A DNA stretch of 43,146 bases from Crenothrix polyspora. GTDB lineage: Bacteria; Pseudomonadota; Gammaproteobacteria; Methylococcales; Methylomonadaceae. The stretch's first letter is position 1. The number at the start of each line of letters is the position of its first letter. Positions 10,066 through 41,976 of this stretch are shown here, piece by piece. The notes beneath the pieces were generated by a model that saw nothing but the letters and a program-made list of their open reading frames with translations, had not been told where the DNA came from and ran no database searches. A program made the position numbers and the translations under genes. The stretch lies in contig CAMDNJ010000008.1 of the NCBI GenBank assembly GCA_945902915.1, positions 1-43,146 on the forward strand, in the 5' to 3' direction.

Positions 10066-10707
10066 ATGGCAAAAGCATTAATTCAAATGGCATTAGATTC
10101 ACTGGATTTCGACGCAACAGTAGCTCTTGCTACCACTGTAGCACCGTATGTTGATATTTTTGAAATCGGAACTCCATGTATTAAACACAATGGTATCAAT
10201 CTGGTTAGAGAGCTAAGAGCAAGATTCCCAGAAAAGTTATTATTAGTCGATCTTAAGACTATGGATGCAGGCGAATACGAAGCAACTCCTTTCTACGCAG
10301 CAGGCGCAGACATCGTTACAGTTCTTGGTGTATCAGGATTGGCAACTTGTCAGGGTGTTATTAAAGCAGCAAACGCACATGGTGCAGAAGCTCAGATCGA
10401 TCTAATTAACGTTGAAGACAAAGCAGCTTGCGCACGTGCAACTTGCGAAGCTGGTGCTCAAATCATGGGTATCCACACTGGTCTTGATGCACAAGCAGCA
10501 GGCCATACACCTTTTGCTGACTTGAACGAAATCGCAGCTCTAGGTTTACCAGTAAGAATTTCAGTTGCTGGCGGTATAAAAGCATCAACTGTTCAAGATG
10601 TTGTAAGAGCCGGTGCTAGTATCGTCGTAGTTGGAGCTGCAATTTATGGCGCAGCATCTCCTGCTGATGCAGCTCGTGAAATTCGTGACTTGGTAGACGC
10701 AGTATAA
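10066..10707 (+). CDS. hps: 3-hexulose-6-phosphate synthase
   Basis: Key enzyme of the ribulose monophosphate cycle: condenses formaldehyde with ribulose 5-phosphate to D-arabino-3-hexulose 6-phosphate in the cytoplasm. At 213 residues it is a member of the orotidine-5'-phosphate decarboxylase superfamily. The signature DLKTMDAG gives D62, K64 and D67, and the phosphate-binding end reads RISVAGGIKAST and VVGAAIYG. Length and motifs are typical of type I methanotrophs. Codon use is more C-ended than in its neighbours, as expected for a very highly expressed gene. The phosphohexuloisomerase gene follows after 2 bases, forming the standard hps-phi pair. Confidence 0.97.
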   Translation: MAKALIQMALDSLDFDATVALATTVAPYVDIFEIGTPCIKHNGINLVRELRARFPEKLLLVDLKTMDAGEYEATPFYAAGADIVTVLGVSGLATCQGVIKAANAHGAEAQIDLINVEDKAACARATCEAGAQIMGIHTGLDAQAAGHTPFADLNEIAALGLPVRISVAGGIKASTVQDVVRAGASIVVVGAAIYGAASPADAAREIRDLVDAV

Positions 10708-10709
10708 TT

Positions 10710-11243
10710 ATGCATCAGCAACTTATCATAGAGAAGATTTCAGGCATTCTTGAAGCAACAGATGATTCGTATGACGTTAAGCTAACGCAATTGCTTGATA
10801 GTGCTAAACGAATATTTATATCTGGTGCTGGTCGTTCCAAGCTGGTTGGCAATTTTTTTGCGATGAGATTGGTGCATGGCGGCTATGATGTCAGTGTCGT
10901 TGGAGAAATTGTAACGCCAAGCATAAAAAATGGTGATTTATTGGTTATTATCTCCGGATCTGGAGAAACTGAGCAATTGATAGCCTTCACTAAGAGTGCT
11001 AAAAAAGTAGGCGCGAAGATCGTATTGATTTCGGCAAAAAGCGACTCGACAATCGGCGACATGGCGGATGCAGTATTTCAAATAGGCCATGCAGACCTTT
11101 ATGGTAAGGTTCTGGGTATGCCTATGGGCACTGTGTTTGAATTGTCTACTTTAGTTTTTTTGGAGGCGACCATTTCTCATATCATTCATGAGAAAGGTAT
11201 AGCTGAAGAAGTGATGCGAGAAAGACACGCTAACTTAGAGTAA
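10710..11243 (+). CDS. phi: 6-phospho-3-hexuloisomerase
   Basis: Converts hexulose 6-phosphate, the hps product, to fructose 6-phosphate. The 177-residue protein is a single SIS (sugar isomerase) domain: ISGAGRSKLVGNFFAMRL near the N-terminus, VIISGSGETEQL as the phosphosugar-binding loop, and a helical tail ending RERHANLE with the family's conserved catalytic glutamate/histidine region. It starts 2 bases after hps and is co-transcribed with it. A 132-bp gap with a weak 6-bp hairpin precedes tkt. Confidence 0.96.
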   Translation: MHQQLIIEKISGILEATDDSYDVKLTQLLDSAKRIFISGAGRSKLVGNFFAMRLVHGGYDVSVVGEIVTPSIKNGDLLVIISGSGETEQLIAFTKSAKKVGAKIVLISAKSDSTIGDMADAVFQIGHADLYGKVLGMPMGTVFELSTLVFLEATISHIIHEKGIAEEVMRERHANLE

Positions 11244-11375
11244 TATCAAAAGAACGGGTGGTTATACTGCTCGTTCTGATGTTTTATAGACTTTGCTGTA
11301 AAGATATTTCCTGGCAGACTTGGATATTTAATAGCTGTCATTACATGTAATTTTAAAATAATGAAGGAGAATAAT

Positions 11376-13370
11376 ATGACTTCGCGTAGAGATTTAGCGA
11401 ACGCCATACGCGCTTTAAGCATGGATGCCGTACAAAAAGCAAACTCTGGACATCCAGGTGCACCAATGGGGATGGCGGATATCGCCCAAGTATTGTGGAA
11501 TGATTTTTTGCGCCACAATCCAACAAATCCACAATGGTCAAATCGGGATCGTTTTGTGCTTTCAAATGGCCACGGTTCAATGCTCATATATTCTTTGTTG
11601 CACCTGACTGGCTATGATTTACCTATTGATGAGCTGAAAAGCTTTCGTCAACTTCATTCAAAAACACCCGGACACCCGGAATATGGATATGCACCAGGCG
11701 TTGAGACAACAACCGGACCTTTAGGTCAAGGTATAACGAACGCTGTTGGTATGGCGATTGCTGAAAAAGCACTCGCGGCTCAATTTAATAAAGACGGCCA
11801 TAAAATCGTTGATCACCATACCTATGTTTTTTTAGGTGATGGCTGTTTGATGGAAGGCATTTCTCACGAAGCTTGTTCTTTGGCTGGAACTCTGGGCTTA
11901 GGTAATTTAACTGCATTTTGGGACGACAATGGTATTTCCATTGATGGCCATGTTGATGGTTGGTTTACTGACAACACTCCTATGCGTTTCGAAGCTTATG
12001 GTTGGCATGTTATTGCTGACGTTGATGGACATGATGCCGCTGCAATCGCTAAAGCAATAGAATTAGCTAAAGCGATGACTGACAAGCCAACCATGATTTG
12101 CTGTAAAACTACGATTGGTTTTGGCTCTCCTAATAAAGCTGGAAGTCATGCTTGTCACGGTGCCGCACTTGGTCAGGATGAAATCAATTTAACCAAGGCT
12201 GCATTGGGTTGGGATCATGAAGCTTTTGTAATTCCTGAAGACATTTATGCAGGTTGGGATGCCAAAGCCAAAGGTGAAAAAGCCGAAAAAGACTGGAATG
12301 AAAAATTTGCAGCTTACCAAGTTGCTTATCCTGACTTGGCTGCAGAATACCAACGTCGTACGACTGGTAAATTACCCGCAACTTGGCAAGTCGATGCTGA
12401 CGCTTTTGTCAGTTCGGTTAATGACGAGGCTAAAACAACTGCGACTCGATTGTCTTCATTGGCTGCTATTGAAGGATTTGCAAAGATCTTACCTGAAATA
12501 TTTGGTGGCTCTGCCGATTTAGGCTGTTCAAATATGACGGAATGGTCTACATACAGGCCAATGCGTGCTGATAAACCTAATGCTAATTACATTAATTATG
12601 GCGTGCGTGAATTCGGTATGTCTGCGATTATGAATGGTATCGCCTTGCATGGTGGCTTCATTCCATTTGGAGCGACATTCTTGATGTTCTCTGAATATGC
12701 ACGTAATGCCTTGCGTATGGCTTCTTTAATGAAGATACGATCAATCTTTGTTTATACACATGATTCTATCGGTTTAGGTGAAGATGGTCCTACTCATCAA
12801 CCAGTAGAGCAAACTGCAACTTTGCGTTTGATTCCAGGTATACAAGTTTGGCGTCCTTGTGACGCAGTAGAAACCACCGTTTCATGGAAGGCAGCTTTTG
12901 AACGACAAGATGGCCCTTCTATTCTGGTCTTTTCTAGACAAAATTTACCGCATGTGCCGCGCACTGAGCAACAAATTGCAAATATTTCAAAAGGTGGCTA
13001 TATCTTAAGTGACTGCGACGGTCAGCCTGATGCTATTATTATAGCTACGGGATCCGAAGTTGAACTGGCTCTGAAAGCAGCGGATGAACTTAAAGCTACA
13101 GGTAAAAAGATTCGAGTGGTTTCTATGCCATCTACTAATATTTTTGATGCTCAAGATGCGGCTTATCGCGAATCAGTGTTACCGGTTTCCGTAACACAAC
13201 GTGTTGCAGTTGAAGCGGGTGTGACTGATGGTTGGTGGAAGTATGTTGGGACTCACGGTAAAATAGTTGGTCTCGATCGTTTTGGTGAGTCTGCACCTGC
13301 AGGACAGCTTTTCAAAGAGTTCGGCTTTACCGTTGAGAATGTAGTTAAAAACATAGAAGCTGTTCTTTAG
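11376..13370 (+). CDS. tkt: Transketolase
   Basis: Thiamine diphosphate enzyme of the RuMP and pentose phosphate pathways that helps regenerate ribulose 5-phosphate. At 664 residues it matches TktA. The order of features is [16 protein letters not shown], the ThDP/Mg motif [22 protein letters not shown], the pyrimidine domain with [19 protein letters not shown] and [19 protein letters not shown], and a C-terminal domain with [14 protein letters not shown] 11376 is preceded by AAGGAGA; an in-frame ATG at 11361 overlaps that ribosome-binding site and is rejected. Its place after hps-phi assigns it to formaldehyde assimilation. Confidence 0.97.
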
Positions 13371-13420: not shown

Positions 13421-13456
13421 CTCGAGTATAGTTGCTCACAGTGAACTATACTCGAG
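13421..13456. repeat. 13-bp perfect inverted repeat between tkt and the GVxKYL genes
   Basis: CTCGAGTATAGTT (13421-13433) and its exact complement (13444-13456) with a 10-base loop. No T-tract follows, so it is not a standard terminator. It lies 50 bp after tkt and 38 bp before the GTG start at 13494, and could be an RNA stability or processing hairpin, or an operator. Confidence 0.8.
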
Positions 13457-13493
13457 GGATTTAGCCTCTTCTTACGACTTTTAGGTGAACAAC

Positions 13494-14201
13494 GTGAAAA
13501 AGAATAATTTGACCAAAGGTGCATTTGTGGTTTTGTTGTTAGCAAATGCTGCAGTAAGCGCAGATCAAAAATATCCAGCCGCAGACTTCCAACCAGAAGT
13601 TCTTTATCAAGATAACGCCTATATTGGTAAGAATAGTTCATCTAGCTCTGTTGAAGTTAAATCTGCTGAAACTAAAAAAGTTGATTCTAATTCTGGAAAA
13701 AACCAAGTGGTTGATTCAAAATATCCAGCAGCAGATTTTCAGCCAGAAATTTTATATCAAGATAAAAATTATAAACAAGCTCCTGCTCCTTTAGTAAAAG
13801 CACAAGTAGTTACTTCAAAAACTATAGCGAATGATGAAGCTGTTGCAGTAGATACTAGCGAGAGCAAAGATGATTCTTCGCAATTAACTTATATATTAGG
13901 TTTAGCTGTTTTGGCTTGCGCTGGTTTTTTCTTAAAAAAACGAAGTGCAGAGACAGTTCAGAAGAAATCAAATCTTTCAGATTCACCTGTTAAAAAATCA
14001 TATGCTCTTAATACAGGTGTAGCGAAATATTTGAATAAAGTAACAGGAACTGGTGTTTCTAGATATTTAGAAACACATGTTAAAGCGGCAACATTCTCAA
14101 CGGGTGTAGCTAAGTACATGGCAAAACAGGCAAGCGCACCTAAAGCAACTGAAAATAACGCAGCAACTGGCGTTGAAAAGTACATGCGTGATCGGGGATA
14201 A
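13494..14201 (+). CDS. Exported membrane protein with YPAADFQP and GVxKYL repeats
   Basis: Unrecognised function. From GTG 13494 (AGGTGA six bases upstream; GTG 13485 is less likely) it has 235 residues. A signal-peptide-like start (MKKNNLTKGAFVVLLLANAAVSA) is followed by two copies of a KYPAADFQPE(V/I)LYQD repeat about 50 residues apart. After a Ser/Lys-rich spacer comes one membrane helix (~131-147) ending in KKRS. The C-terminal third has four GV(A/S/E)(K/R)Y(L/M) motifs (about 175, 187, 204 and 226). By the positive-inside rule the YPAADFQP half is periplasmic and the GVxKYL half cytoplasmic. It lies between tkt and tal in the RuMP cluster, 3 bases before a second GVxKYL gene. No catalytic motif is visible. 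Confidence 0.9.
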   Translation: MKKNNLTKGAFVVLLLANAAVSADQKYPAADFQPEVLYQDNAYIGKNSSSSSVEVKSAETKKVDSNSGKNQVVDSKYPAADFQPEILYQDKNYKQAPAPLVKAQVVTSKTIANDEAVAVDTSESKDDSSQLTYILGLAVLACAGFFLKKRSAETVQKKSNLSDSPVKKSYALNTGVAKYLNKVTGTGVSRYLETHVKAATFSTGVAKYMAKQASAPKATENNAATGVEKYMRDRG

Positions 14202-14204
14202 GAA

Positions 14205-15011
14205 ATGAACCAAAATAACTTGGGTGGTTTTCTTTTTCCTGCTGTTGCCGGGTTGTTCTTTTTCATGAAGCGACCTAGTGTTAATGAGATAGAAGTAGTT
14301 CATACTCATTATCCGGTTTACTCTAAGGATTCAACTGGACTTACAGGTGTTGCTAAATATTTAGCATACCAAGATGATGCTCTGCAATCTCAATTAATTG
14401 CTGATGAGCTTGCAAAGCAGCACCCAGAATCATCGAAGAGTAGCGTATCAAAATACTTAGACACCCTAGATAAAAGCCTAGTAACTGGTGTAGCTAAATA
14501 TATGCTTAGGCAGGCAATAGTTGAAAAACAACAAATACAAATACTCAAGGCTGCTGAAGGATCTAGTGTTGAAAGGTACTTGAAAAATAAAAAAAATGCG
14601 CCGGAGTTGAGTGGTGTTGCTAAATATCTAAAGCATCTAGATAGTTTGCCACAGCCTAGTAATGTTGCTAAATATATGGCAAAACAAGCTGCACTTGATG
14701 CTTTAAAAGCTAAAAAAACTGATGTGCAAATGTCAGGTGTAGCTAAATATTTAAGTTACCAAGAGAGTTTACCTAAACCTAGTAAGGTAGAAAAATATTT
14801 GGCTATGCAAGCTATTTTAACTGCAAAACAAGTTAATACGACTTTAGCTAAGCATGAATTAACAGGAGTATCAAAGTATTTGCAGCATCAAGATGCTTTG
14901 CCTCAGCCAAGTAAGGTAGCTAAGTATATGAAAAGGCAGGTATTATTAGAGCAGAAACCTCTAGTTATTAATGAGACTGGTGTTGATAAATATATGCGGA
15001 TTCAAGGTTAA
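14205..15011 (+). CDS. Membrane-anchored protein made of eleven GVxKYL-type repeats
   Basis: Unrecognised function. 268 residues: a short N-terminal hydrophobic anchor (~7-20) followed by MKRP, then a Lys-rich, mostly helical-looking repeat region. The motif (T/S/N/K)-V-x-(K/R)-Y-(L/M) occurs at 48, 80, 95, 121, 137, 153, 178, 194, 221, 237 and 259. Motifs tend to come in pairs 15-16 residues apart, with 22-27 between pairs. The inner linker of a pair is often SLPxPS. The last motif ends the protein (DKYMRIQG), as in the upstream gene. The anchor followed by Lys-Arg predicts a cytoplasmic repeat domain. It is 3 bases downstream of its partner gene, so the two are surely co-transcribed, and a strong terminator follows. 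Confidence 0.9.
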   Translation: MNQNNLGGFLFPAVAGLFFFMKRPSVNEIEVVHTHYPVYSKDSTGLTGVAKYLAYQDDALQSQLIADELAKQHPESSKSSVSKYLDTLDKSLVTGVAKYMLRQAIVEKQQIQILKAAEGSSVERYLKNKKNAPELSGVAKYLKHLDSLPQPSNVAKYMAKQAALDALKAKKTDVQMSGVAKYLSYQESLPKPSKVEKYLAMQAILTAKQVNTTLAKHELTGVSKYLQHQDALPQPSKVAKYMKRQVLLEQKPLVINETGVDKYMRIQG

Positions 15012-15022
15012 AAAATATGTTT

Positions 15023-15064
15023 AAAATACACCGCTATCATAATTGATAGCGGTGTATTTTTTTG
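15023..15064 (+). terminator. Terminator after the GVxKYL gene pair
   Basis: A 17-bp perfect stem (15023-15039 with 15044-15060, core ACACCGCTATCA) and a 4-base loop, ending in seven T residues. It separates the hps-phi-tkt-repeat block from tal. An A-tract on the other side makes it potentially bidirectional. Confidence 0.93.
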
Positions 15065-15347: not shown

Positions 15348-16334
15348 ATGGGAATAAATTTATTAGATCAACTTAAAGCTGTTACAGTAGTTGTTGCAGA
15401 TACTGGCGACATTCAAGCCATTGAAACCTTTAAACCTCGCGATGCTACGACTAACCCTTCTTTAATTACAGCTGCAGCGCAAATGCCACAATATCAAGGT
15501 ATTGTTGATAATACATTAAAAGCTGCGCGCACTAGCTTAGGTCAAACGGCTACTGCTGCAGAAGTTGTAACTTTGGCTTTTGATCGTCTTGCTGTATCTT
15601 TTGGGCTTAAGATTTTAGAAATCATACCAGGCCGTGTATCTACAGAAGTAGATGCTCGTCTTTCTTTCGACACTGATGCGACAATAGCAAAAGGCCGTGA
15701 ATTGATAGCCCAATACGAAGAGCACAATGTTGGTCGTGATCGCGTATTAATCAAAATTGCTGCTACTTGGGAAGGTATTCAAGCTGCTGCTGTTCTTGAA
15801 AAAGAAGGCATACATTGTAACTTGACTTTATTGTTTGGAATTCACCAAGCCATTGCGTGTGCTGAAAATGGCATCACTCTGATTTCGCCATTCGTAGGCC
15901 GCATTCTTGATTGGTATAAAAAAGATACCGGTCGTGATTCTTATGCGCCTGCTGAAGATCCAGGTGTGGTTTCAGTTACTGAAATTTATAACTACTATAA
16001 AAAGTTTGGTTACAAAACTGAGGTTATGGGTGCTAGCTTCCGTAACGTTGGTGAAATTACTGAATTAGCGGGTAGTGATTTATTGACTATTGCGCCTTCT
16101 TTACTGGCTGAATTACAAGCAACAGAAGGTGAGTTGCCACGTAAACTTGATCCAGTTAATGCAGCAAGCTTATCAATTGAAAAAATCTCAATAGACAAAG
16201 CTACTTTTGAAGCGATGCATGCTGAAAACCGTATGGCTAACGATAAATTAGCTGAAGGTATTAGCGGCTTTGCTGCGGCATTAGTAACGCTAGAACAATT
16301 ACTTGCAGATCGCTTAGCTAGCCTTGAAGGTTAA
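15348..16334 (+). CDS. tal: Transaldolase
   Basis: Transfers a dihydroxyacetone unit in the rearrangement phase of the RuMP and pentose phosphate pathways. At 328 residues it is a TalB-class enzyme. [13 protein letters not shown] near the N-terminus is the family signature, and the Schiff-base lysine is K136 in [31 protein letters not shown] and [14 protein letters not shown] follow. The ATG has AGAGGG upstream. It has its own leader after a strong terminator, so it is probably transcribed separately from hps-phi-tkt but together with fba 84 bases downstream. Confidence 0.97.
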
Positions 16335-16418: not shown

Positions 16419-17498
16419 ATGTCACAAAAAATTTTAGATGTAGTTAAACCCGGTGTTGTAACCGGTGAAGATGTGCAAAAAATCTTTGCAATTTGCAAAG
16501 AAAATAAATTTGCAATGCCTGCTGTTAACGTAATCAACACAGATTCAATCAACGCTGTATTAGAAGCCGCAGCTAAAGTTAAATCACCTGTTGTTATTCA
16601 ATTTTCTAACGGTGGCGCTCAATTCGTTGCCGGCAAAGGCCTAAAGTTAGATGGACAAGAAACAGCTGTTTTAGGTGCAATTTCAGGCGCACAACATGTA
16701 CACCTAATGGCAGAAGCTTATGGCGTACCTGTTATTTTGCATACTGACCATGCAGCAAAAAAATTATTGCCTTGGATTGATGGCTTGTTAGATGCAGGTG
16801 AAAAACATTTCGCTGCTACCGGAAAACCTTTGTTCAGCTCACACATGTTGGACTTGTCTGAAGAAAGTCTTAAAGAAAACATTGAAATTTGTGGTCAATA
16901 TTTAGCACGTATGTCTAAAATGGACATGACGCTTGAAATTGAATTAGGTGTGACAGGTGGTGAAGAAGATGGCGTTGACAACAGTAACTTAGATCATTCA
17001 TTGCTGTATACACAACCTGAAGATGTTGCTTATGCTTATGAACAATTAAGTAAAATTAGCCATCGCTTCACGATCGCTGCTTCATTTGGCAATGTACATG
17101 GTGTTTATAAGCCAGGTAACGTTAAATTAACACCAACTATTTTAGACAATTCACAAAAGTATGTGTCTGAAAAATACGGCATTCCTGAAAATACATTAAA
17201 CTTTGTATTTCATGGTGGTTCAGGTTCTTCTGCGGAAGAAATTAAAGAATCAATTGGTTATGGCGTTGTGAAAATGAATATTGATACTGATACCCAATGG
17301 GCTACTTGGGAAGGTATTATGAATTTTTACAAGAAAAATGAAGGCTATTTACAAGGTCAAATCGGTAATCCTGATGGTGACGATAAACCTAACAAAAAAT
17401 ACTACGATCCACGCGTTTGGCAGCGTGCTGGTGAAGAAGGAATGGTTACTCGTTTAGAGCAAGCATTTCAAGAATTGAACGCTGTTAATTCATTATAA
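16419..17498 (+). CDS. fba: Fructose-bisphosphate aldolase, class II
   Basis: Zinc-dependent aldolase cleaving fructose 1,6-bisphosphate, which supplies the cleavage branch of the RuMP cycle. At 359 residues it equals the E. coli FbaA type. Zinc and active-site motifs seen are LHTDHAAKK, the glycine-rich loop GVTGGEEDGVDN, NVHGVYKPGNVKL, FHGGSGSS and MNIDTDTQW. It follows tal after 84 bases, and a short GC-rich hairpin in that gap (about 16345-16370) might act as an attenuator. A clear terminator follows the gene. Confidence 0.97.
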   Translation: MSQKILDVVKPGVVTGEDVQKIFAICKENKFAMPAVNVINTDSINAVLEAAAKVKSPVVIQFSNGGAQFVAGKGLKLDGQETAVLGAISGAQHVHLMAEAYGVPVILHTDHAAKKLLPWIDGLLDAGEKHFAATGKPLFSSHMLDLSEESLKENIEICGQYLARMSKMDMTLEIELGVTGGEEDGVDNSNLDHSLLYTQPEDVAYAYEQLSKISHRFTIAASFGNVHGVYKPGNVKLTPTILDNSQKYVSEKYGIPENTLNFVFHGGSGSSAEEIKESIGYGVVKMNIDTDTQWATWEGIMNFYKKNEGYLQGQIGNPDGDDKPNKKYYDPRVWQRAGEEGMVTRLEQAFQELNAVNSL

Positions 17499-33540: not shown

Positions 33541-35109
33541 ATGATTGAAGACATCAAAAAAACTCTCTGGGCTACTGCTGACAAGCTTCGCGCTAACATG
33601 GACGCCGCCGAATATAAGCACATCGTGCTCGGCCTGATCTTCGTCAAGTACATCTCGGACACCTTCCAGACACGTCGGGTAGAACTCACCAGTAAATTTA
33701 CTGATAGCCAAGATGACTACTATTTGGATAATGCTGATTCAGACTTAATCAATATAGAACTAGAAGACCGCGACTATTACAAAGAGGTCAACGTGTTCTG
33801 GGTGCCGGAAGCCGCCCGCTGGGAAAGCTTACGCGCTCAAGCTAAGCAAGCTGACATAGGTAAACGTATCGACGACGCCTTGTCCTTGATTGAAACAGAA
33901 AACCCCAAGCTTAAGGGCATCCTCGATAAACGCTATGCTCGTGTACAACTGCCTGATGGCAAGCTTGGCGAACTGGTTGATCTAGTTTCACAAATTGGTT
34001 TTGGTGAATCTACAGATACGGCAAAAAATCATGCCCGTGATTTATTGGGACAGGTTTATGAATACTTTCTCGGACAGTTCGCCAGTGCTGAAGGTAAACG
34101 TGGTGGACAGTTCTATACGCCAGCATCGATAGTTAAAACCTTGGTCGCTGTACTCGCTCCGCATCATGGTCAGGTTTATGATCCTTGCTGTGGTTCCGGT
34201 GGTATGTTTGTGCAATCAGAGCGATTTATCGAAGCTCATGGCGGCAAATTGGGCGACGTATCCATTTATGGGCAAGAAGCCAATCCCACTACTTGGCGCT
34301 TAGCCGCTATGAATCTTGCCATACGTGGCATTGATTTTAATCTGGGTAAAGAACCCGCCGATACCTTCGTGCGTGATCAACATCCTGATCTGCGTGCTGA
34401 TTTTGTACTTGCTAATCCACCATTCAATATCTCCGACTGGTGGCATGGCAGCCTGGAAGGTGATCCGCGCTGGGTTTACGGTACGCCACCGCAAGGCAAC
34501 GCTAACTATGCCTGGCTGCAACATATGCTTTATCACCTAAAACCCACAGGTAGAGCCGGTATCGTGCTTGCTAATGGTTCCATGTCGTCCAGCCAGAACA
34601 GCGAAGGTGATATTCGTCGTGCCATGGTCGATGCCGACAAGGTAGAAGTGATGGTCGCACTGCCCGGTCAACTTTTTTTCAATACCACAATCCCCGCCTG
34701 TTTGTGGTTTTTAGTTAAAGAAAAACGGATTAGAAAAGGTGAAGTTCTGTTCATAGATGCCCGCAAACTCGGCAGCATGATCAGCCGCGTGCAATGCGAA
34801 TTTACCGATGACATCATCGAACAAGTCGCCAGCACCGTTGCCGCCTGGCGTGGTGAGAGCACCTCAGGTGATGACTATGCTGATGTTGCAGGCTATTGCC
34901 GCAGCGTTACTCTGGCAGAAATCGCCGAACACGGGCATGTTTTAACGCCCGGTCGCTATGTGGGTGCGGAAGCCGTTGAAGACGATGACGAGGCCTTCGC
35001 TGACAAAATGCAAAAGCTGACCGAGACGTTGGGCGAGCAAATGGCGAAAGGCGCGGAACTGGATCAACTGATTCGCCTGAAGTTGGGAGGCTTGGGGTAT
35101 GAGTTTTGA
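33541..35109 (+). CDS. hsdM: Type I restriction-modification system methyltransferase subunit HsdM
   Basis: N6-adenine DNA methyltransferase subunit; with HsdS it methylates the recognition site, and with HsdR it forms the restriction complex. 522 residues: an N-terminal helical HsdM_N domain (IKKTLWATADKLR to KYIS), GGQFYTPASIVKTLVAVLAP, the SAM motif DPCCGSGGMF, and catalytic motif IV NPPF (292-295). A GC-richer base composition than the flanking core genes is visible. No clear Shine-Dalgarno precedes ATG 33541. It overlaps hsdS by 11 bases. Confidence 0.97.
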   Translation: MIEDIKKTLWATADKLRANMDAAEYKHIVLGLIFVKYISDTFQTRRVELTSKFTDSQDDYYLDNADSDLINIELEDRDYYKEVNVFWVPEAARWESLRAQAKQADIGKRIDDALSLIETENPKLKGILDKRYARVQLPDGKLGELVDLVSQIGFGESTDTAKNHARDLLGQVYEYFLGQFASAEGKRGGQFYTPASIVKTLVAVLAPHHGQVYDPCCGSGGMFVQSERFIEAHGGKLGDVSIYGQEANPTTWRLAAMNLAIRGIDFNLGKEPADTFVRDQHPDLRADFVLANPPFNISDWWHGSLEGDPRWVYGTPPQGNANYAWLQHMLYHLKPTGRAGIVLANGSMSSSQNSEGDIRRAMVDADKVEVMVALPGQLFFNTTIPACLWFLVKEKRIRKGEVLFIDARKLGSMISRVQCEFTDDIIEQVASTVAAWRGESTSGDDYADVAGYCRSVTLAEIAEHGHVLTPGRYVGAEAVEDDDEAFADKMQKLTETLGEQMAKGAELDQLIRLKLGGLGYEF

Positions 35110-36478
35110 TTTGGTCGATATAGAGAGTAAAGAGATTAACAATCCTGGTGCATTTGAAAATCAATACCCATATGTTTTTGTTGCTGAGGTCTGTTCAGTA
35201 GGTGATGGAGCGCATAGTAAAGTAAATCGAGTTTCAGAAGGACTGCCTTATTTAACTTCAAAGAATATAGGTCAAGGAAAGTTAAAACTTGATAACTATG
35301 ATTGCATATCAAAAGAAGACTTTGAACGTTTGTTTCCTCAAAATAGTAAGGCGACAAGGCGGCCAATCGCTGGAGATGTGCTAATAGGCATTATTGGTAC
35401 ATTTGGTAACGCATACTTGTACAAAAATAATGATCATTTTGGATTTGCCAGTTCAATCGGAATTCTTCGTCCAAACCCCAAAGTACTTTTTCCAGGATTT
35501 TTGTATTACGTAATTACGAGTCAGAAATTTAAGAATGTTCACGCAAACTATAATGCGGGGTCTGTACAAGGGTATACAAACATTCCGACGATAAAAAAAC
35601 TACAATTGCCATTGCCTCCGTTAAACGAGCAGAAGAAAATTGCAGCGTTACTTAAAAGCCTCGACGATCGTATAGCCTCACTACGCGAAACCAACACCAC
35701 CCTCGAAGCCATCGCCCAAGCCCTGTTTAAATCCTGGTTCGTGGACTTCGATCCCGTATATGCCAAACAGCAAGGAAACGAGCCGGAAGGCATGGATACC
35801 TTCACCGCAGCTCTCTTCCCCGATAGCTTCGAAGAATCAGAACTGGGCTTGGTGCCGAGAGGGTGGTGGGTTGGAAATGTCGGTCAAATTGCTGAGATTA
35901 TTGATTGTTTACATGCCAAAAAACCTGAACTATTAGGAGAAGGATGGCCATTTCTTCAGTTAAGTAACATCCGTGATGATGGCCTACTAGATGCTTCCAA
36001 GGTTTCCTATATAACTGAGGTAGATTACAAAAAATGGATCTCACGCATTGAAGTTAATCAAGGGGATTGCGTAATTACGAATGTTGGTCGTGTTGGTGCT
36101 GTTGCCCAGATACCAGCAGGATTCAAAGCAGCTATGGGACGAAACATGACTGCAATACGACCAAAAAATGAGTGGTTTTATCCGACGTATCTTGTTGAGC
36201 TACTTCAGTCTTCATGGATGCGAACTGAAATAAAAAGAAGAACAGATGTTGGTACTATTTTAGATGCACTTAATGTGCGCAATATTCCTGCTTTGCGTTG
36301 TGTTCTTGCTCCAAGCGAAGTAATGATAAGTTTTGAATCAACATGTCGTTCATTACGCGCAGCCATGGAAGCAAATTTGGAACGGATAAACAGTCTAGCT
36401 GCGATTCGCGACACCTTGCTCCCCCGCCTGATCTCCGGCCAACTCCGATTGCCAGAAGCCGTAGATACCAACTTATGA
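35099..36478 (+). CDS. hsdS: Type I restriction-modification specificity subunit HsdS
   Basis: Determines the bipartite DNA target. 459 residues in the usual two-half layout. The first target-recognition domain (~10-170) ends in IPTIKKLQLPLPPLNEQKK. A central conserved helix follows (KIAALLKSLDDRIASLRETN, then LEAIAQALFKSWFVDFDPV). The second domain (~245-420) is followed by the closing helix (LERINSLAAIRDTLLPRL). The two recognition domains are more AT-rich than the conserved helices, a sign of domain exchange. The start overlaps hsdM by 11 bases; the stop overlaps the Fic start (ATGA). Confidence 0.95.
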   Translation: MSFDLVDIESKEINNPGAFENQYPYVFVAEVCSVGDGAHSKVNRVSEGLPYLTSKNIGQGKLKLDNYDCISKEDFERLFPQNSKATRRPIAGDVLIGIIGTFGNAYLYKNNDHFGFASSIGILRPNPKVLFPGFLYYVITSQKFKNVHANYNAGSVQGYTNIPTIKKLQLPLPPLNEQKKIAALLKSLDDRIASLRETNTTLEAIAQALFKSWFVDFDPVYAKQQGNEPEGMDTFTAALFPDSFEESELGLVPRGWWVGNVGQIAEIIDCLHAKKPELLGEGWPFLQLSNIRDDGLLDASKVSYITEVDYKKWISRIEVNQGDCVITNVGRVGAVAQIPAGFKAAMGRNMTAIRPKNEWFYPTYLVELLQSSWMRTEIKRRTDVGTILDALNVRNIPALRCVLAPSEVMISFESTCRSLRAAMEANLERINSLAAIRDTLLPRLISGQLRLPEAVDTNL

Positions 36479-37425
36479 GCTATCAGCCTCCTTACACCAT
36501 TACCCCACTGATATTGCAACGGGTAGCAGAAATTGTCGAATTGCTAACCCGTTGGAAAGTGGCCGGTGATAACGCACTGTCGCCGCAGTTACGCCGCAAC
36601 AATCGAATCCGCACCATTCAGGCATCGCTGGCTATTGAAAATAACACCCTGAGCATCGAACAGGTGACTGCCGTATTGGAAGGCAAAACGGTGCTGGGTT
36701 TGCCGCGTGAAATCCAGGAAGTGCGTAACGCCTTTGCCGCGTATGAACAACTGCCGAACTGGCAAGCGCATTCTGCGACCGATCTACTAACTGCCCAGAG
36801 CTTATTAATGTCAGGCCTAGTCGATGACGCGGGCAGTTTTCGCTCCAAAGGTGTAGGCATTTACAATGACCAGATTTTAGTGCACATGGCGCCACCCGTC
36901 AGCCGGGTCGACGCATTAATGACTGATTTACTGGCTTGGCTGGCATCGGCTCCGGTACATCCGTTAATCGCCAGCTGCGTGTTCCATTACGAATTTGAGT
37001 TTATCCACCCGTTCGCTGATGGCAATGGTCGTATGGGCAGGCTTTGGCAAACGTTGATATTAAGCCAGTGGCAACCGCTATTGGCTTATTTACCCGTTGA
37101 ATCGGTGATCAGAGTGCGGCAAACCGCTTATTACCAAGCTTTAGCAGTAGCGGACTCAACGCCTTTTATTGAATTTATGTTATACGCCTTGCTTGATGCC
37201 ATGACAGAAGTGCTGGTAAAAACGTCGGGAAAAGTGTCGGGAAAAACGTCGGGGAAAATCCTGGCATTGATTCGTGAAAATGCCTTAGTAACGATCCCGG
37301 AATTAGCGGTTGCTATCGGGGTAAGCGAGCGTTCCATTGAACGTAACCTCAAAAAACTGCAAGCTGAAAATCATCTGTCACGTATCGGGCCGGCCAACGG
37401 CGGCTATTGGAAAGTCAGCGAATGA
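36475..37425 (+). CDS. Fic family protein (AMP-transferase type) with C-terminal HTH
   Basis: 316 residues from ATG 36475. An N-terminal helical part has the inhibitory motif SLAIEN (51-56, [S/T]xxxE[G/N]), so the enzyme is self-inhibited like class II Fic proteins. The Fic core has the complete active-site loop HPFADGNGRMGR (178-189). A Ser-Gly-Lys linker (KTSGKVSGKTSGK) leads to a winged-helix domain (TIPELAVAIGVSERSIERNL). Fic proteins add AMP or other phosphate groups to target proteins; the target is unknown. The ATGA overlap with hsdS couples it to the restriction operon. An upstream in-frame ATG at 36343 would lie inside hsdS and is rejected. Confidence 0.93.
   Translation: MSYQPPYTITPLILQRVAEIVELLTRWKVAGDNALSPQLRRNNRIRTIQASLAIENNTLSIEQVTAVLEGKTVLGLPREIQEVRNAFAAYEQLPNWQAHSATDLLTAQSLLMSGLVDDAGSFRSKGVGIYNDQILVHMAPPVSRVDALMTDLLAWLASAPVHPLIASCVFHYEFEFIHPFADGNGRMGRLWQTLILSQWQPLLAYLPVESVIRVRQTAYYQALAVADSTPFIEFMLYALLDAMTEVLVKTSGKVSGKTSGKILALIRENALVTIPELAVAIGVSERSIERNLKKLQAENHLSRIGPANGGYWKVSE
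37222..37257 (+). repeat. Three 12-bp tandem repeats in the Fic linker
   Basis: Units ACGTCGGGAAAA, GTGTCGGGAAAA and ACGTCGGGGAAA encode (T/V)SGK repeats between the Fic core and the HTH. Such linkers can change length by slippage without a frameshift. Confidence 0.75.
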
Positions 37426-37493
37426 TTGAAGATCAATTGGAGTCTGGAATTGAAACCGATAGAAAAAACTAACAAATTTGTTATACTGACTTT

Positions 37494-37821
37494 ATGAACT
37501 TTACCATTAGCTATTACAACGAACGGGTTAAACAGCAAAGTCATGTTGCTGCCACCGGGAATATTAGCGGATTACATCCACTTGACCGATTTAATGCAAA
37601 GCCACGGCGCACAATTACAAATGCCGCATTCACGGGCAATGGGCGGCGGTTTGTTTGAATTACGTCCCAAGGGCAAAGAAGGCATCGGGCGGGTGTTTTA
37701 TTACACACAAGTTGGACAGGCTATTGTTATTTTGCATAGCTTTGTTAAGAAAACCAACACTACGCCAGTCACCGATTTGCAGCTTGCCAGAAAACGACTA
37801 AAGGAGGTTAAAGATGAATAA
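37494..37821 (+). pseudogene. HigB/Gp49-like toxin gene with a +1 frameshift
   Basis: ATG 37494 opens MNFTISYYNERVKQQ, the usual start of Gp49/HigB-type RelE-fold toxins. One extra A in the AAA at 37537-37539 shifts the frame. Without it the protein would read on as QQVMLLPPGILADYIHLTDL and then MPHSRAMGGGLFELRPKGKE and VILHSFVKK, a complete ~109-residue toxin. As sequenced, only a 92-codon frame from ATG 37543 could be made, lacking the first strand and having no ribosome-binding site. It is likely inactive, unless the extra base is a sequencing error. The 3' end overlaps the intact antitoxin gene by 8 bases. Confidence 0.8.
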
Positions 37822-38122
37822 CGATACTTTTCAGCCTGTTCCGCACGATGCCGCATTTCGTGAGCAATTATTAAATAATCCAGCGGTGAAGGCCGCTTAT
37901 GACACCAACATCGCGAAATACGCCATACTCGACGAAATACTCGGTGCCAGACGCGACGCAGGTTTAACCCAGGCGCAAGTCGCTGAACGCATGGGCACAA
38001 AAGCCTCGGCAGTCGCGCGATTGGAAAGTGCCTTGGTATCCGGCAAACATTCTCCCTCTATTGAAACCTTGCGTAAATATGCCGCCGCTGTCGGTAAAAA
38101 GCTGGAAGTGCATCTGGTTTAA
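37814..38122 (+). CDS. XRE-family antitoxin (HigA-like)
   Basis: 102 residues with a helix-turn-helix in the C-terminal half: ARRDAGLTQAQVAERMGTKA followed by ARLES and SIETLRKYAAAVGKKLEVHLV. This is the standard layout of antitoxins paired with Gp49/HigB toxins, and toxin-before-antitoxin order is also typical. The start has AAGGAGG at about 37800-37806, seven bases upstream. It is intact while the toxin is frameshifted. Confidence 0.92.
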   Translation: MNNDTFQPVPHDAAFREQLLNNPAVKAAYDTNIAKYAILDEILGARRDAGLTQAQVAERMGTKASAVARLESALVSGKHSPSIETLRKYAAAVGKKLEVHLV

Positions 38123-38156
38123 ACTTTCCTTAAAATAAACTATCAACGAGATTCTA

Positions 38157-38426
38157 ATGAGCATTCAAGAAACAATTAATCAACATTTGAGCACTTTGCC
38201 TGAAAACCTGCATGCAGAAATTTTAAATTTTGTTTTATTTCTCGAATATCAACGACAACCAGGCAACATTACACCGTCTGCGTTTAGCGAAGAGCAACGC
38301 CGACAAAAATTGGGCGAATGTTTAGAGCAGTTAGCTAAACATAGTCCTTTTTCTGATATTAAAGATCCGATAGCATGGCAACGAGAAATTCGCAAAGATA
38401 GAGACTTGCCGGGGAGAGAATCATGA
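38157..38426 (+). CDS. DUF2281-type antitoxin (VapB-like)
   Basis: 89 residues. The N-terminal IQETINQHLSTLPENLHAEI and VLFLEYQ match DUF2281 proteins, which commonly precede PIN-domain toxins. The C-terminal part (RRQKLGECLEQLAKHSPFSDIKDP, ending WQREIRKDRDLPGRES) is the likely toxin-wrapping tail. It overlaps the downstream toxin ATG by 4 bases, supporting a toxin-antitoxin pair. Confidence 0.87.
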   Translation: MSIQETINQHLSTLPENLHAEILNFVLFLEYQRQPGNITPSAFSEEQRRQKLGECLEQLAKHSPFSDIKDPIAWQREIRKDRDLPGRES

Positions 38427-38794
38427 TTGCCGACAGCAATTTATTCATTTATGTCACTCAACCAGACTATGGCTATTTAATTGACTGGTTCAAACAAAAC
38501 ACACCGCTAGCATCGGCTATTACACACGTTGAAACGCTAGATTATCACCGTTTACAAGCTGAAGATCAAGCACTATTGGTGCAATTATTCGGTTATTTAG
38601 GCTGTTTGTACCCGACCCCCGAAACGTTTACAACGGCTATTGAATTACGTCGGCAGCGCAAAATGTCATTGGGTGATGCGCTAATTGCCGCGACTGCGCT
38701 AGAACATCGGCTGATATTAGCGACCCGCAATGTAAAAGATTTTGAATGGATTACAGGTCTAAAAATCGTCAATCCAATTAGAGAAATGTTCTAA
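38423..38794 (+). CDS. PIN-domain toxin (VapC-like)
   Basis: Predicted Mg-dependent ribonuclease, 123 residues. Acidic PIN residues are D4 (MIADSNLFIY), the glutamate in AITHVETLDY (~37), and D84-region SLGDALIAATAL, with TRNVKDFEW near the end. All core residues appear present. It starts 4 bases inside the antitoxin gene, and its stop shares one base with the hsdR ATG. Confidence 0.92.
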   Translation: MIADSNLFIYVTQPDYGYLIDWFKQNTPLASAITHVETLDYHRLQAEDQALLVQLFGYLGCLYPTPETFTTAIELRRQRKMSLGDALIAATALEHRLILATRNVKDFEWITGLKIVNPIREMF

Positions 38795-41700
38795 TGACCG
38801 AAGACCAACTGGAACAAGAAACCCTAAGCTGGCTTACCGATGTGGGCTACACAGCCATTTATGGTCCTGATATTTCAATAGATGGCAATACACCGGAGCG
38901 CAGTAATTATACCCAAGTGGTGTTGGTCGAACGCTTACGTAACGCCATCAACCGGCTCAATCCCTTGGTGCCATTGGTCGCCCGTGATGATGCCTTGCAG
39001 CAAGTTTTAAATCTGGATACACCGGTTTTATTGGCGGCCAATCGCCATTTTCATCGTTTGCTGGTGAATGGCGTACCGGTTCAATACCAAAAAGACGGTG
39101 AAACCCGAGGCGATTTTGTCCGCCTGATTGACTGGGATAGCCCCTCATCCGGCTCTACAAGCCACCTTCTCCCGGCGGGAGAAGGGAACAATGAATGGCT
39201 GGCGATTAATCAGTTTTCCATCAAAGGCCAAAAATATACCCGTCGCCCTGATATTATTCTGTTTGTTAACGGTTTGCCGTTGGTGCTGTTGGAGCTGAAG
39301 AACCCTGCTGATTTGACTGCCGATGTCTGGAAGGCCTACGAGCAGCTACAAACCTATAAAGAACAAATACCGGATGTGTTTGAGTATAACGAAATACTGG
39401 TCGTGTCGGATGGTACGGAAGCGCTGATGGGCTCGCTGTCTGCTGACGCGGAACGTTTTATGGCTTGGCGTACCATTGACGGTGTAACGCTTGATCCCTT
39501 GGGTCAATTTAATGAGCTGGAAACATTGGTGCGCGGCGTTTTGGCTCCGGAATACTTGCTGGATTTTCTGCGCTTCTTTGTGCTGTTTGAAGATGACGGC
39601 ACTTTGATAAAGAAGATTGCCGGTTACCATCAGTTTCATGCGGTGCGTTCGGCTATTACCCAAGTAGTCACGGCATCACGTCCCGGTGGCAATCAAAAAG
39701 GCGGCGTAGTCTGGCATACCCAAGGTTCCGGCAAAAGCATCACTATGACCTGCTTTGCCGCCCGCGTGATGCGGGAAGTCGCCATGGAAAACCCGACTAT
39801 CGTGGTGATTACCGATCGCAACGATTTGGATGGTCAATTGTTTGGCGTGTTTTCCCTGTCGCAGGACTTATTGCGTGAGCAACCGGTTCAAGGTGAAACC
39901 CGTCAGGACTTAAGGGCCAAGTTGGCGAATCGTCCTTCCGGCGGTATCGTGTTTGCCACTATCCAGAAATTCATGCCGGGTGCCGATGAAGACCATTATC
40001 CGGTGTTATCAGATCGCCATAATATTGTCGTGATTGCTGATGAAGCGCATCGGACCCAATATGGTTTTGAGGCCAAACTTAAAACCAGAAAAGCCCCCCA
40101 TAGTTATTTAAGTATTAACCTGCCTGCACAAGAAAATGCCATTGCGGATGTGTCTGCCTATTATCAGGTGGGTTATGCTCAGCATTTACGCGATGCCTTG
40201 CCCAATGCTACTTTCGTCGCGTTTACCGGCACACCGGTTTCTTCTGAAGACCGTGATACTCGTGCCGTGTTTGGTGATTATATTCATATCTATGATATGC
40301 AGCAGGCGCGTGATGATGGTGCGACAGTGCCGATTTATTTTGAATCACGTCTGGCTAAATTGGGCTTAAAAGCAGAGTTATTACCTGATATTGACGCCGA
40401 GGTGGATGAACTTGCAGAAGATGAAGAAGATGATCAGCAAGCTAAACTAAAAAGTCGCTGGGCCGCACTGGAACGTATTGTCGGCGCGGAACCGCGCATC
40501 CAGCAAGTGGCCGCTGATTTGGTTGCGCATTTTGAAGAACGCAGCAAGGCGCAAACCGGCAAAGCCATGATTGTCGCCATGAGTCGTGAAGTATCGGTGC
40601 ATTTATATAATGCCATCATTGCCCTGCGACCGGAATGGCATGATGAAGACCCGGAAAAGGGCGTTATCAAAGTAGTAATGACCGGTTCTGCGAGTGACAA
40701 GCCGTTATTGCGACCACATATTTATTCAAAACAAATCAAAAAACGTTTAGAAAAACGTTTCAAAGATCCTGAAGATCCGATGCGTTTGGTAATAGTGCGG
40801 GATATGTGGCTGACCGGCTTTGACGCGCCCTGTGTGCATACCATGTATATCGACAAGCCCATGAAAGGTCATAACTTGATGCAAGCAATCGCGAGGGTTA
40901 ATCGGGTGTTTCGTGATAAACAAGGTGGCTTGGTGGTCGATTACATTGGCATTGCCAGTGATTTAAAACAAGCCTTAAAGGAATATACGGCCAGTAAAGG
41001 GCGTGGCAGTTTAACGGTCGATGCCCATGAAGCCTATGCTGTGCTGGCAGAAAAGCTTGATATTCTACAAGCCATGTTACACGGCTTTGATTACAGTGAC
41101 TTTTTAACTGGTGGTCATAAAACGCTAGCAAAAACAGCAAATCATGTACTCGGTATCAAAGAAGGTAAAAAGCGTTTTTGTGATACAGCACTGGCCATGT
41201 CCAAAGCCTTTACCTTATGTTGTACTTTAGATGAAGCCAAGGCCGTTCGTGAAGAAGTCGCTTTCTTTCAGGCGGTTAAAGTCTTACTGACCAAGAAAGA
41301 AATCAGCAGTAAAAAGAAAACCAATGAAGAGCGAGAGCTGGCGATACGCCAGATCATCGGTTCGGCAGTAGTCTCAGAAGAAGTAGTGGATATCTTTCAT
41401 GCGGTGGGTCTGGAGAAACCCAATATTGGTATTCTGGATGAAGATTTTTTAAATGATGTCCGTAACCTACCTGAACGTAATCTTGCAGTGGAGTTACTGG
41501 AACGACTACTTGAAGGTGAAATAAAAAGTCGGTTTGCTAGCAATGTTGTACAACAAAACAAGTTCTCTGAACTGCTAGCCAACGTTATTAAGCGCTACCA
41601 AAACCGCTCTATTGAAACGGCCCAAGTGATGGAAGAATTGATCCAAATGGCCAAAAAGTTTAAGGAAGCGGTTAATCGTGGAGACGATCTCGGTCTTAAT

Positions 41701-41976
41701 AATGATGAGCTAGCCTTTTATGATGCACTAGCAAACAACGAAGAGTCAGTACGTGAATTAGGTGATGAAACCCTCAAGAAAATTGCCCATGAACTAGCCG
41801 AGAGTTTGCGCAAAAGCACCAGTGTAGATTGGTCAGTCCGTGAAAGTGTTCGTGCTAGCCTGAGATTAATGGTGAAACGAATACTGCGCAAATATAAATA
41901 CCCTCCGGATAAACAAGAAGAGGCTGTGCAGTTGGTTTTGGAGCAGGCTGAGAATTTGTGTGCGGAGTGGGCTTGA
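38794..41976 (+). CDS. hsdR: Type I restriction enzyme endonuclease subunit HsdR
   Basis: Translocase-nuclease of the type I system. 1060 residues: an N-terminal nuclease with RRPDIILFVNGLPLVLLELKNP split over the D...ExK motif (~153-172), helicase motif I TQGSGKS (GSGKS 311-315), motif II DEAH (416-419), motif III FTGTP, and motif VI MQAIARVNRVFR. A helical C-terminal HsdM/S-binding region follows. The ATG shares a base with the vapC stop, so it depends on read-through of the toxin-antitoxin genes lying between hsdS and hsdR. No defect is seen. Confidence 0.97.
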   Translation: MTEDQLEQETLSWLTDVGYTAIYGPDISIDGNTPERSNYTQVVLVERLRNAINRLNPLVPLVARDDALQQVLNLDTPVLLAANRHFHRLLVNGVPVQYQKDGETRGDFVRLIDWDSPSSGSTSHLLPAGEGNNEWLAINQFSIKGQKYTRRPDIILFVNGLPLVLLELKNPADLTADVWKAYEQLQTYKEQIPDVFEYNEILVVSDGTEALMGSLSADAERFMAWRTIDGVTLDPLGQFNELETLVRGVLAPEYLLDFLRFFVLFEDDGTLIKKIAGYHQFHAVRSAITQVVTASRPGGNQKGGVVWHTQGSGKSITMTCFAARVMREVAMENPTIVVITDRNDLDGQLFGVFSLSQDLLREQPVQGETRQDLRAKLANRPSGGIVFATIQKFMPGADEDHYPVLSDRHNIVVIADEAHRTQYGFEAKLKTRKAPHSYLSINLPAQENAIADVSAYYQVGYAQHLRDALPNATFVAFTGTPVSSEDRDTRAVFGDYIHIYDMQQARDDGATVPIYFESRLAKLGLKAELLPDIDAEVDELAEDEEDDQQAKLKSRWAALERIVGAEPRIQQVAADLVAHFEERSKAQTGKAMIVAMSREVSVHLYNAIIALRPEWHDEDPEKGVIKVVMTGSASDKPLLRPHIYSKQIKKRLEKRFKDPEDPMRLVIVRDMWLTGFDAPCVHTMYIDKPMKGHNLMQAIARVNRVFRDKQGGLVVDYIGIASDLKQALKEYTASKGRGSLTVDAHEAYAVLAEKLDILQAMLHGFDYSDFLTGGHKTLAKTANHVLGIKEGKKRFCDTALAMSKAFTLCCTLDEAKAVREEVAFFQAVKVLLTKKEISSKKKTNEERELAIRQIIGSAVVSEEVVDIFHAVGLEKPNIGILDEDFLNDVRNLPERNLAVELLERLLEGEIKSRFASNVVQQNKFSELLANVIKRYQNRSIETAQVMEELIQMAKKFKEAVNRGDDLGLNNDELAFYDALANNEESVRELGDETLKKIAHELAESLRKSTSVDWSVRESVRASLRLMVKRILRKYKYPPDKQEEAVQLVLEQAENLCAEWA

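Follow-up and report, generated by a model that had tools for sequence, protein, structure and literature searches.

A candidate motif-repeat scaffold encoded among the RuMP pathway genes of gammaproteobacterial methanotrophs

In bacteria, the repeat protein CsoS2, a linker of carboxysomes, joins a carbon-fixing enzyme to a larger assembly. In the Chlamydomonas pyrenoid one Rubisco-binding motif is carried both by the soluble linker EPYC1 and by the tubule membrane proteins RBMP1 and RBMP2, and the latter two are proposed to connect Rubisco to the pyrenoid tubules (PMC10473226). The diatom pyrenoid has PYCO1, a tandem-repeat linker with sticker motifs that condenses with a carbon-fixing enzyme (PMC10288592). 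For synthetic methylotrophy, fusions and complexes of Mdh, Hps and Phi have been engineered that keep the production and the fixation of formaldehyde close together (PMC8879981). Here we describe two genes, A and B, in the window (the whole 43,146-nt stretch of Crenothrix polyspora DNA that was analysed), whose products may form a short-linear-motif scaffold for ribulose monophosphate (RuMP) enzymes, with B as the multivalent scaffold and A as its membrane tether; we give this reading a probability of roughly 0.58. Coordinates are collected in Table 1.

Table 1. Features of the locus, and motif proteins of two other types. Positions without a locus prefix are those of the window.
Feature	Position	Strand	Remarks
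hps, 3-hexulose-6-phosphate synthase	10066..10707	+	TIGR03128 over cut-off; candidate client
phi, 6-phospho-3-hexuloisomerase	10710..11243	+	TIGR03127 over cut-off; candidate client
tkt, transketolase	11361..13370	+	TIGR00232 over cut-off
Inverted repeat between tkt and A, 13-bp perfect, 10-nt loop	13421..13456	+	followed by leader CTTCTTNCGACTTTTAGGTGA
Gene A, secreted-then-membrane protein, 235 aa	13494..14201	+	signal peptide, two outer repeats, transmembrane helix, four cytoplasmic motifs (predicted)
Signal peptide of A, aa 1-23, ...VSA/DQ	13494..13562	+	from sequence; AF2 helix 7-21; putative cleavage site
Outer repeat 1 of A (periplasmic or luminal, predicted), YPAADFQPEVLYQD, aa 27-40	13572..13613	+	
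Outer repeat 2 of A, YPAADFQPEILYQD, aa 77-90	13722..13763	+	
Transmembrane helix of A, aa 128-151, ends LKKR	13875..13946	+	KD19 1.79; AF2 helix 128-151
Four GVx[KR]Y[LM] motifs of A	14016-14033, 14052-14069, 14103-14120, 14169-14186	+	AF2 helix begins at each
Gene B, multivalent repeat chain, 268 aa, eleven motifs	14205..15011	+	
Hydrophobic N-terminal stretch of B, GFLFPAVAGLFFFMK	14226..14270	+	KD19 1.17; no AF2 helix; anchoring doubtful
Eleven motifs of B, 18 nt each	14346..14996	+	AF2 helix begins at each
Motif starts of B, nt	14346, 14442, 14487, 14565, 14613, 14661, 14736, 14784, 14865, 14913, 14979	+	
Intrinsic terminator after B	15023..15060	+	17-bp perfect stem, T tail
tal, transaldolase	15348..16334	+	TIGR00874 over cut-off; candidate client
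fba, class II fructose-bisphosphate aldolase	16419..17498	+	NF006628 over cut-off
ChpA/PilL-like kinase with motifs	L320:5477-11176	+	
ChpA/PilL-like kinase with motifs	L321:4790-10804	+	
ChpA/PilL-like kinase with motifs	L324:3601-9207	-	
Third motif-protein type	L045:9442-10272		stretch without RuMP gene
Third motif-protein type	L112:7478-8374	-	stretch without RuMP gene
Third motif-protein type	L338:2734-3519	-	stretch without RuMP gene

A and B are two adjoining genes between tkt and tal, as an earlier note on this DNA had stated, and both lie on the plus strand. Either of two in-frame GTG codons, at 13494 or 13485, may start A, the second giving a protein of 238 aa. The note also took the two genes to be co-transcribed, which sequence signals make very likely: the gap between them is 3 nt and a strong terminator follows B. 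Because of this terminator, tal is probably transcribed separately from A-B or by read-through, and it probably has its own transcript. The stretch before A (window 13421-13500) holds the hairpin and the leader, and the leader hardly varies when the window is aligned with its congeners (10 sequences in all). Covariation for the hairpin was not found; alignment folding gave a different structure of 24 pairs, three of them with two-sided change. Elsewhere in the window, at 33541-41976, inspection of the ORF list by eye suggested type I restriction-modification-like genes (M, S and R) and a Fic-like protein, with small proteins between.

The motif [GSNK]Vx[KR]Y[LM], which the first reading had counted four times in A and eleven times in B, was recovered in exactly those numbers, starting at residues 175, 187, 204 and 226 of A and at residues 48, 80, 95, 121, 137, 153, 178, 194, 221, 237 and 259 of B. 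When each protein was shuffled 20,000 times the mean motif count was 0.004 (A) and 0.007 (B), with a maximum of 1. The DNA pattern GVx[KR]Y[LMI] gave 11 forward and no reverse matches over the whole genome from which the window comes, compared with two and two for the reversed-pattern control, and 10 of the 11 lie inside A and B. The eleventh, on contig C7, falls inside no ORF of at least 60 aa, and a further match to a TGV pattern, on contig C36, is antisense to a 488-aa ORF. These two were the only matches of the strict patterns outside A and B, and no motif-tagged RuMP enzyme was found in this genome.

Motif statistics were taken from 332 motifs in 48 RuMP-linked proteins of the order. Since the search pattern fixes Y and restricts V, K/R and L/M/I, high figures at those positions say little; the residue before G, which the pattern leaves free, is T or S in 99% of the motifs, G itself is present at 81%, and Q stands three residues past L/M/I at 46%. 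The extended motif can be written [T/S]-G-V-x-[K/R]-Y-[L/M/I]-x-x-Q, and its median spacing is 20 residues. AlphaFold begins a helix at the motif start in all 15 copies of A and B, and predicts the chains to be otherwise without a fold (pTM 0.16 and 0.18, mean pLDDT 52.9 and 63.9, for A and B), low confidence being what unfolded chains should be expected to give. One extra short helix in B, at residues 74-77, coincides with no motif. A short helix of this kind, N-capped and with one binding face, would be typical of a binding motif.

Beyond the first reading, we found a signal peptide and two YPAADFQPE[VI]LYQD repeats N-terminal to the membrane helix of A. In the first outer repeat Y27, P28, D31, F32 and P34 are invariant, and in the second Y77, P78, F82, P84 and D90, among 13 sequences (11 from family f1 and two of the f3 type). 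The transmembrane helix accounts for the blocks of highest pLDDT in the AF2 model of A (72 and 69). A signal peptide, a transmembrane helix and then a basic stretch would leave the motifs in the cytoplasm and the YPAADFQP repeats beyond it, so that A, judging from sequence and model, should be exposed on both faces of the membrane. The f3 type also has a small secreted protein between tkt and A, which combines outer repeats with a cluster of cysteines, CSCPC (L046:8425-8724; L047:9513-9827, minus strand).

Both proteins had originally been described as membrane-anchored. For A this is well supported by prediction, whereas for B it is doubtful: the hydrophobic stretch is unconvincing, with a best 19-residue hydropathy of 1.17 against 1.79 in A, and AlphaFold gives no helix in residues 1-47. 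Among 18 motif proteins at other loci, N-terminal hydropathy exceeds 1.6 in one, a 134-aa B; the other 17 look soluble or peripheral.

Database searches gave little by which to name these proteins. Pfam has nothing over cut-off for A, and for B only PF12220 (U1snRNP70_N; E 7.4e-6, 26.9 bits against a 23-bit cut-off, residues 126-173), which was judged spurious in so repetitive a chain. Nothing in NCBIfam is over cut-off for A or B, four related proteins match none of its families, and in the PDB neither B nor the A profile has a match at E up to 1. A literature search, largely outside subscription journals and in which locus-tag mentions may have been passed over, showed no title or abstract opening about these proteins.

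We examined how far the genes spread in the order (Methylococcales). At a threshold of E 0.001, B is matched in 36 of the 61 relatives to which the search was applied, and the A profile has matches in 273 of 311 genomes, 208 of 228 good genomes and 45 of 50 genera, counts that take in weak and partial matches, some of them to the outer repeats alone. An A-profile match is absent from all 14 listed genomes of family f7 and from 18 other genomes. In 41 of the 45 genera, from four families, the motif gene adjoins hps, phi, tkt or tal; one or more genomes stand for each genus, usually chosen for a strong match. The earlier note had said that its proposal would be refuted if most homologues lay away from RuMP clusters or in non-methylotrophs at unrelated loci, and this is not what was found. 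One genus (g11) was counted by inspection: its RuMP-adjacent motif copy is a short form, and a fuller copy lies elsewhere (L094). The four exceptions are g34, with a motif protein that has another C-terminal domain and lies in a stretch without RuMP gene, g46, with an outer repeat and a transmembrane helix and no inner motif, and g8 and g4, with outer repeats and a transmembrane helix and again no inner motif. A-type proteins from families f2 and f6 and from g46 have no cytoplasmic motif and do not adjoin RuMP genes. Genus g3 has the RuMP-linked form in two genomes (G036, G264) and, in the two stretches from a third (G263), outer-repeat proteins only and no RuMP gene. RuMP linkage in f6 was considered and rejected, as proteins on the RuMP contig of G052 are identical to those of G038, a member of another family, and are probably contamination.

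In the genus of the window itself, tkt or tal lies in the stretch at all 29 loci of the B search besides the window's own. Gene orders differ, both hps-phi-tkt-A-B-tal-fba and A-hps-phi occurring, and there are tandem repeats of hps-phi-tkt in two and three copies (G036, G229; L043, L102), each copy being followed by a motif protein. The B-like RuMP-linked proteins of the order are 134 to 544 aa long in the genomes read.

A wider test used a class sample of 369 genomes, in which hps (TIGR03128 over cut-off) is present in six. The A profile matches eight of the 369, and the six that remain after inspection are the same six genomes that have hps; the other two matches were set aside as chance, one to a coiled-coil-like 617-aa protein (G414) and one to a protein by a glnA-like gene, without motif copies (G637). 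Among the genomes without hps no match survived inspection, which likewise does not refute the note's proposal. The DNA pattern TGV[ADE]..Y has matches in 52 of the 369 genomes and more than three in only five (7, 20, 8, 5 and 4), all of these among the six with hps; within the sample, five of the six hps genomes are the only ones with several matches on one contig. The sixth, G312, has a single match, its copies being mostly TSV. Genomes with two or three matches have them on different contigs or not in tandem. Single matches elsewhere (30 loci checked by script) fall in unrelated proteins or outside ORFs, and the reversed pattern, used as a control, also gives occasional single-copy matches.

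Outside the order, the matches of the class sample that survived inspection come from three genomes of one Methylophaga-like family. This second family has a protein of 97-187 aa, without transmembrane helix and with [GS]VERYI repeats, encoded between hps and tal; Methylophaga lonarensis (Thiotrichales by NCBI) has the same arrangement, and only the inner-motif part of the A profile is matched there. Of 57 genomes of the family 54 match, 46 in a short frame (<250 aa) and eight only in long frames, for example a kinase. At 19 of the 20 loci fetched, hps precedes and tal follows the place of the motif gene; the twentieth, L312, is truncated where its contig stops, and there too tal follows. The ORF filter missed the motif protein at L317, which is why the scripted tally stands at 19 of 20.

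The motif is also found away from RuMP genes. In the Methylophaga-like family, hybrid kinases that we take to be ChpA-like from their gene order and domains carry two to six TGVERYL motifs (TGVERYLRQQ type) in their linkers (1868-2004 aa, three read), and long open frames, mostly of 1827-2065 aa and some incomplete, are matched by A3 in many genomes of the family. Further motif proteins away from RuMP genes were found at L045, L094, L098, L099, L111, L112 and L338. Three of these (L045, L112, L338) are of a third type, in which GVxKYL/M repeats are joined to a C-terminal cysteine/histidine domain, CxA(S/T)T..G..C...C.QH....F.P (a C..KG..C...C..H domain). The natural fusion of the motif to a ChpA-like kinase points, at the sequence level, away from RuMP, and its presence there and in other proteins without RuMP linkage means that its partner need not be a RuMP enzyme. 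The motif might bind a general hub, or itself, with A and B organising cell poles, arrays or membranes and the RuMP neighbourhood reflecting co-regulation. The kinases and the cysteine/histidine proteins speak for that explanation; what makes us consider it unlikely is that RuMP gene linkage recurs in two families with differing gene orders and that no genome of the class sample has the repeated motif unless it also has hps.

The outer repeats travel separately as well, among other places in small secreted proteins. The genome of the window encodes on contig C40 a 99-aa secreted protein with three YPAxxFxPxVI[YF] repeats and no inner motif (L082:10036-10335, minus strand), and at another locus a secreted protein with a Polyketide_cyc2 domain (PF10604) has two YPAANFEPxxIY repeats at its end (L088:8097-8903, minus strand), as if the outer motif served there as a C-terminal tag. 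The proteins with motifs or outer repeats away from RuMP genes could all belong to a single assembly, much as happens in the pyrenoid, or could indicate a more general partner of the motif. Two neighbourhoods may be recorded: the 99-aa protein gene adjoins a cysN-like gene, and at L111:8527-8916 a 129-aa motif protein comes just after a 569-aa membrane protein that by eye resembles SulP-type transporters.

A second wider test used 33 named genomes; a search with methanol dehydrogenase had given 468 loci, of which 80 with names were retained as the source of these genomes. Of the 33, 20 have hps. The 13 Methylophilaceae tested are all among the hps carriers, yet at E up to 0.01 the motif is matched in none of them, and the RuMP pathway, by this sequence comparison, does not need motif proteins. 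In a Methylothermaceae genome hps is accompanied by a match that covers the outer-repeat half only, and one Methylococcales MAG has motif proteins, with hps not found. Neither hps nor a motif match was found in a marine gammaproteobacterium, nor in Methylomirabilis, Methylosinus, Chenggangzhangella, Methylopila, Hyphomicrobium, Filomicrobium, Ancylobacter, Xanthobacter, Methyloversatilis, Derxia and a Mesorhizobium. Tal is 80-83% identical to that of the window in three Methylophaga-like genomes versus 55-56% in three Methylophilaceae (those whose tal genes lie in the fetched stretches), and Hps is 73-76% identical (motif-adjacent copy) versus 65-67%. Such conservation is suggestive of Tal or Hps as a client and is confounded by descent and possible gene transfer.

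The order of methanotrophs that carries A has internal membranes, and A and B might instead be architectural proteins of these intracytoplasmic membranes, their outer YPAxDFQP repeats and inner motifs bridging stacks or anchoring pMMO arrays, with no direct role in formaldehyde fixation. The f2 and f6 proteins, which combine outer repeats and a transmembrane helix with neither inner motif nor RuMP linkage, would suit such a role. We think it improbable, and two organisms argue against it: Methylophaga lonarensis, a methanol user, keeps an inner-motif protein beside hps and tal, and Methylosinus sporium, which does have internal membranes, has no match. As for A being a trans-envelope sensor or regulator, through which RuMP enzymes would be informed of methanol or formaldehyde status, with B as amplifier or inhibitor after the fashion of small disordered regulators, two distinct conserved motif sets predicted on opposite sides of a membrane would fit, but Pfam and NCBIfam reveal no sensory or catalytic domain in A or B and the length range of B-like proteins fits a multivalent linker better than a stoichiometric regulator, so that we hold this to be very improbable.

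A scaffold for RuMP enzymes, as the earlier note had proposed, is the candidate role that we prefer, by inference from sequence, models and analogy. It draws support from motif counts far above chance, the coincidence of motif and helix starts, gene linkage, co-occurrence and the topology signals of A, and is weakened by the occurrence of the motif in non-RuMP proteins and by the 13 Methylophilaceae that do without it. Also against it stand the A-type proteins that lack the cytoplasmic motif, the G263 stretches, the terminator that parts B from tal, the low AlphaFold confidence and the one helix of B at no motif. One short motif is present in many copies, with spacers disordered by prediction; a predicted membrane-spanning member, A, carries the same motif; and in several lineages, with exceptions, gene linkage and co-occurrence connect the family with a single enzyme system.

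In the scaffold that we propose, each motif would be a short helix capped by T or S, whose V, Y and L face would bind one site on a RuMP enzyme. The inner client would most likely be Hps or transaldolase, since the motif gene of the second family stands between the genes of these two, and that of the first shares a cluster with them. RuMP client enzymes of this sort are oligomers, and multivalent B could cross-link them. A would fix the resulting enzyme cluster to the (intracytoplasmic) membrane, and its outer repeats would bind a partner across the membrane, perhaps the machinery that oxidises methane or methanol. The formaldehyde-fixing enzymes would in this way be held where formaldehyde appears. 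Hexulose phosphate synthase of Methylococcus capsulatus was reportedly described as particulate by Ferenci, Strom and Quayle in 1974, which we take as a lead.

Arrays of pMMO, with the soluble part facing the lumen of the internal membranes, might, it has been suggested, recruit periplasmic methanol dehydrogenase (PMC9445010). That suggestion makes these enzymes candidate partners of the outer repeats of A, a pairing that we offer as conjecture. A larger version, which we raise tentatively and regard as rather doubtful, is a trans-membrane formaldehyde metabolon of gammaproteobacterial methanotrophs, in which A would span the intracytoplasmic membrane, the outer repeats would hold the luminal enzymes that oxidise methane and methanol, TGVxKYL and B would gather Hps, Phi, Tkt and Tal, and Methylophaga-like bacteria would keep the soluble half only. 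If true, a pyrenoid-like cluster would sit on the other face of the membrane, and toxic formaldehyde would be fixed while crossing.

To our knowledge, how methanotrophs keep toxic formaldehyde from escaping before its cytoplasmic fixation is an open question in the field. If the scaffold reading is true, the answer would lie in a conserved, unannotated motif scaffold that most genomes of this order of methanotrophs encode. We know of no earlier scaffold of this sort for the RuMP pathway, and this one, if true, would be the first. TGVAKYL would then also be a ready-made tag for building strains fed on methane or methanol.

The Rubisco-binding motif has a key tryptophan, and A and B, which contain no tryptophan, do not share the Rubisco-binding motif of EPYC1 and the RBMPs by that mark. 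CsoS2 resembles A and B in being a bacterial repeat protein for enzyme assembly; its model is absent among the Pfam families matched by A or B at E up to 1, and no shell gene was recognised by eye among the ORFs of the window. The Mdh-Hps-Phi fusions have the same aim and are man-made (PMC8879981), whereas A and B would be a natural, separate scaffold acting through motifs. PYCO1 is like B a tandem-repeat chain with sticker-like motifs (PMC10288592); it differs in enzyme and lineage. The closest likeness is to EPYC1 with RBMP1 and RBMP2, where, as in A and B, one motif is common to a soluble repeat linker and to transmembrane proteins and is tied to one carbon-fixation system (PMC10473226). 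That system is algal and built on Rubisco, whereas A and B are bacterial, belong with RuMP, have a putative partner, and, by the PDB search at E up to 1, show no sequence relation to it. By analogy, A and B, although not members of that family, would work like the linker-tether pair of the pyrenoid.
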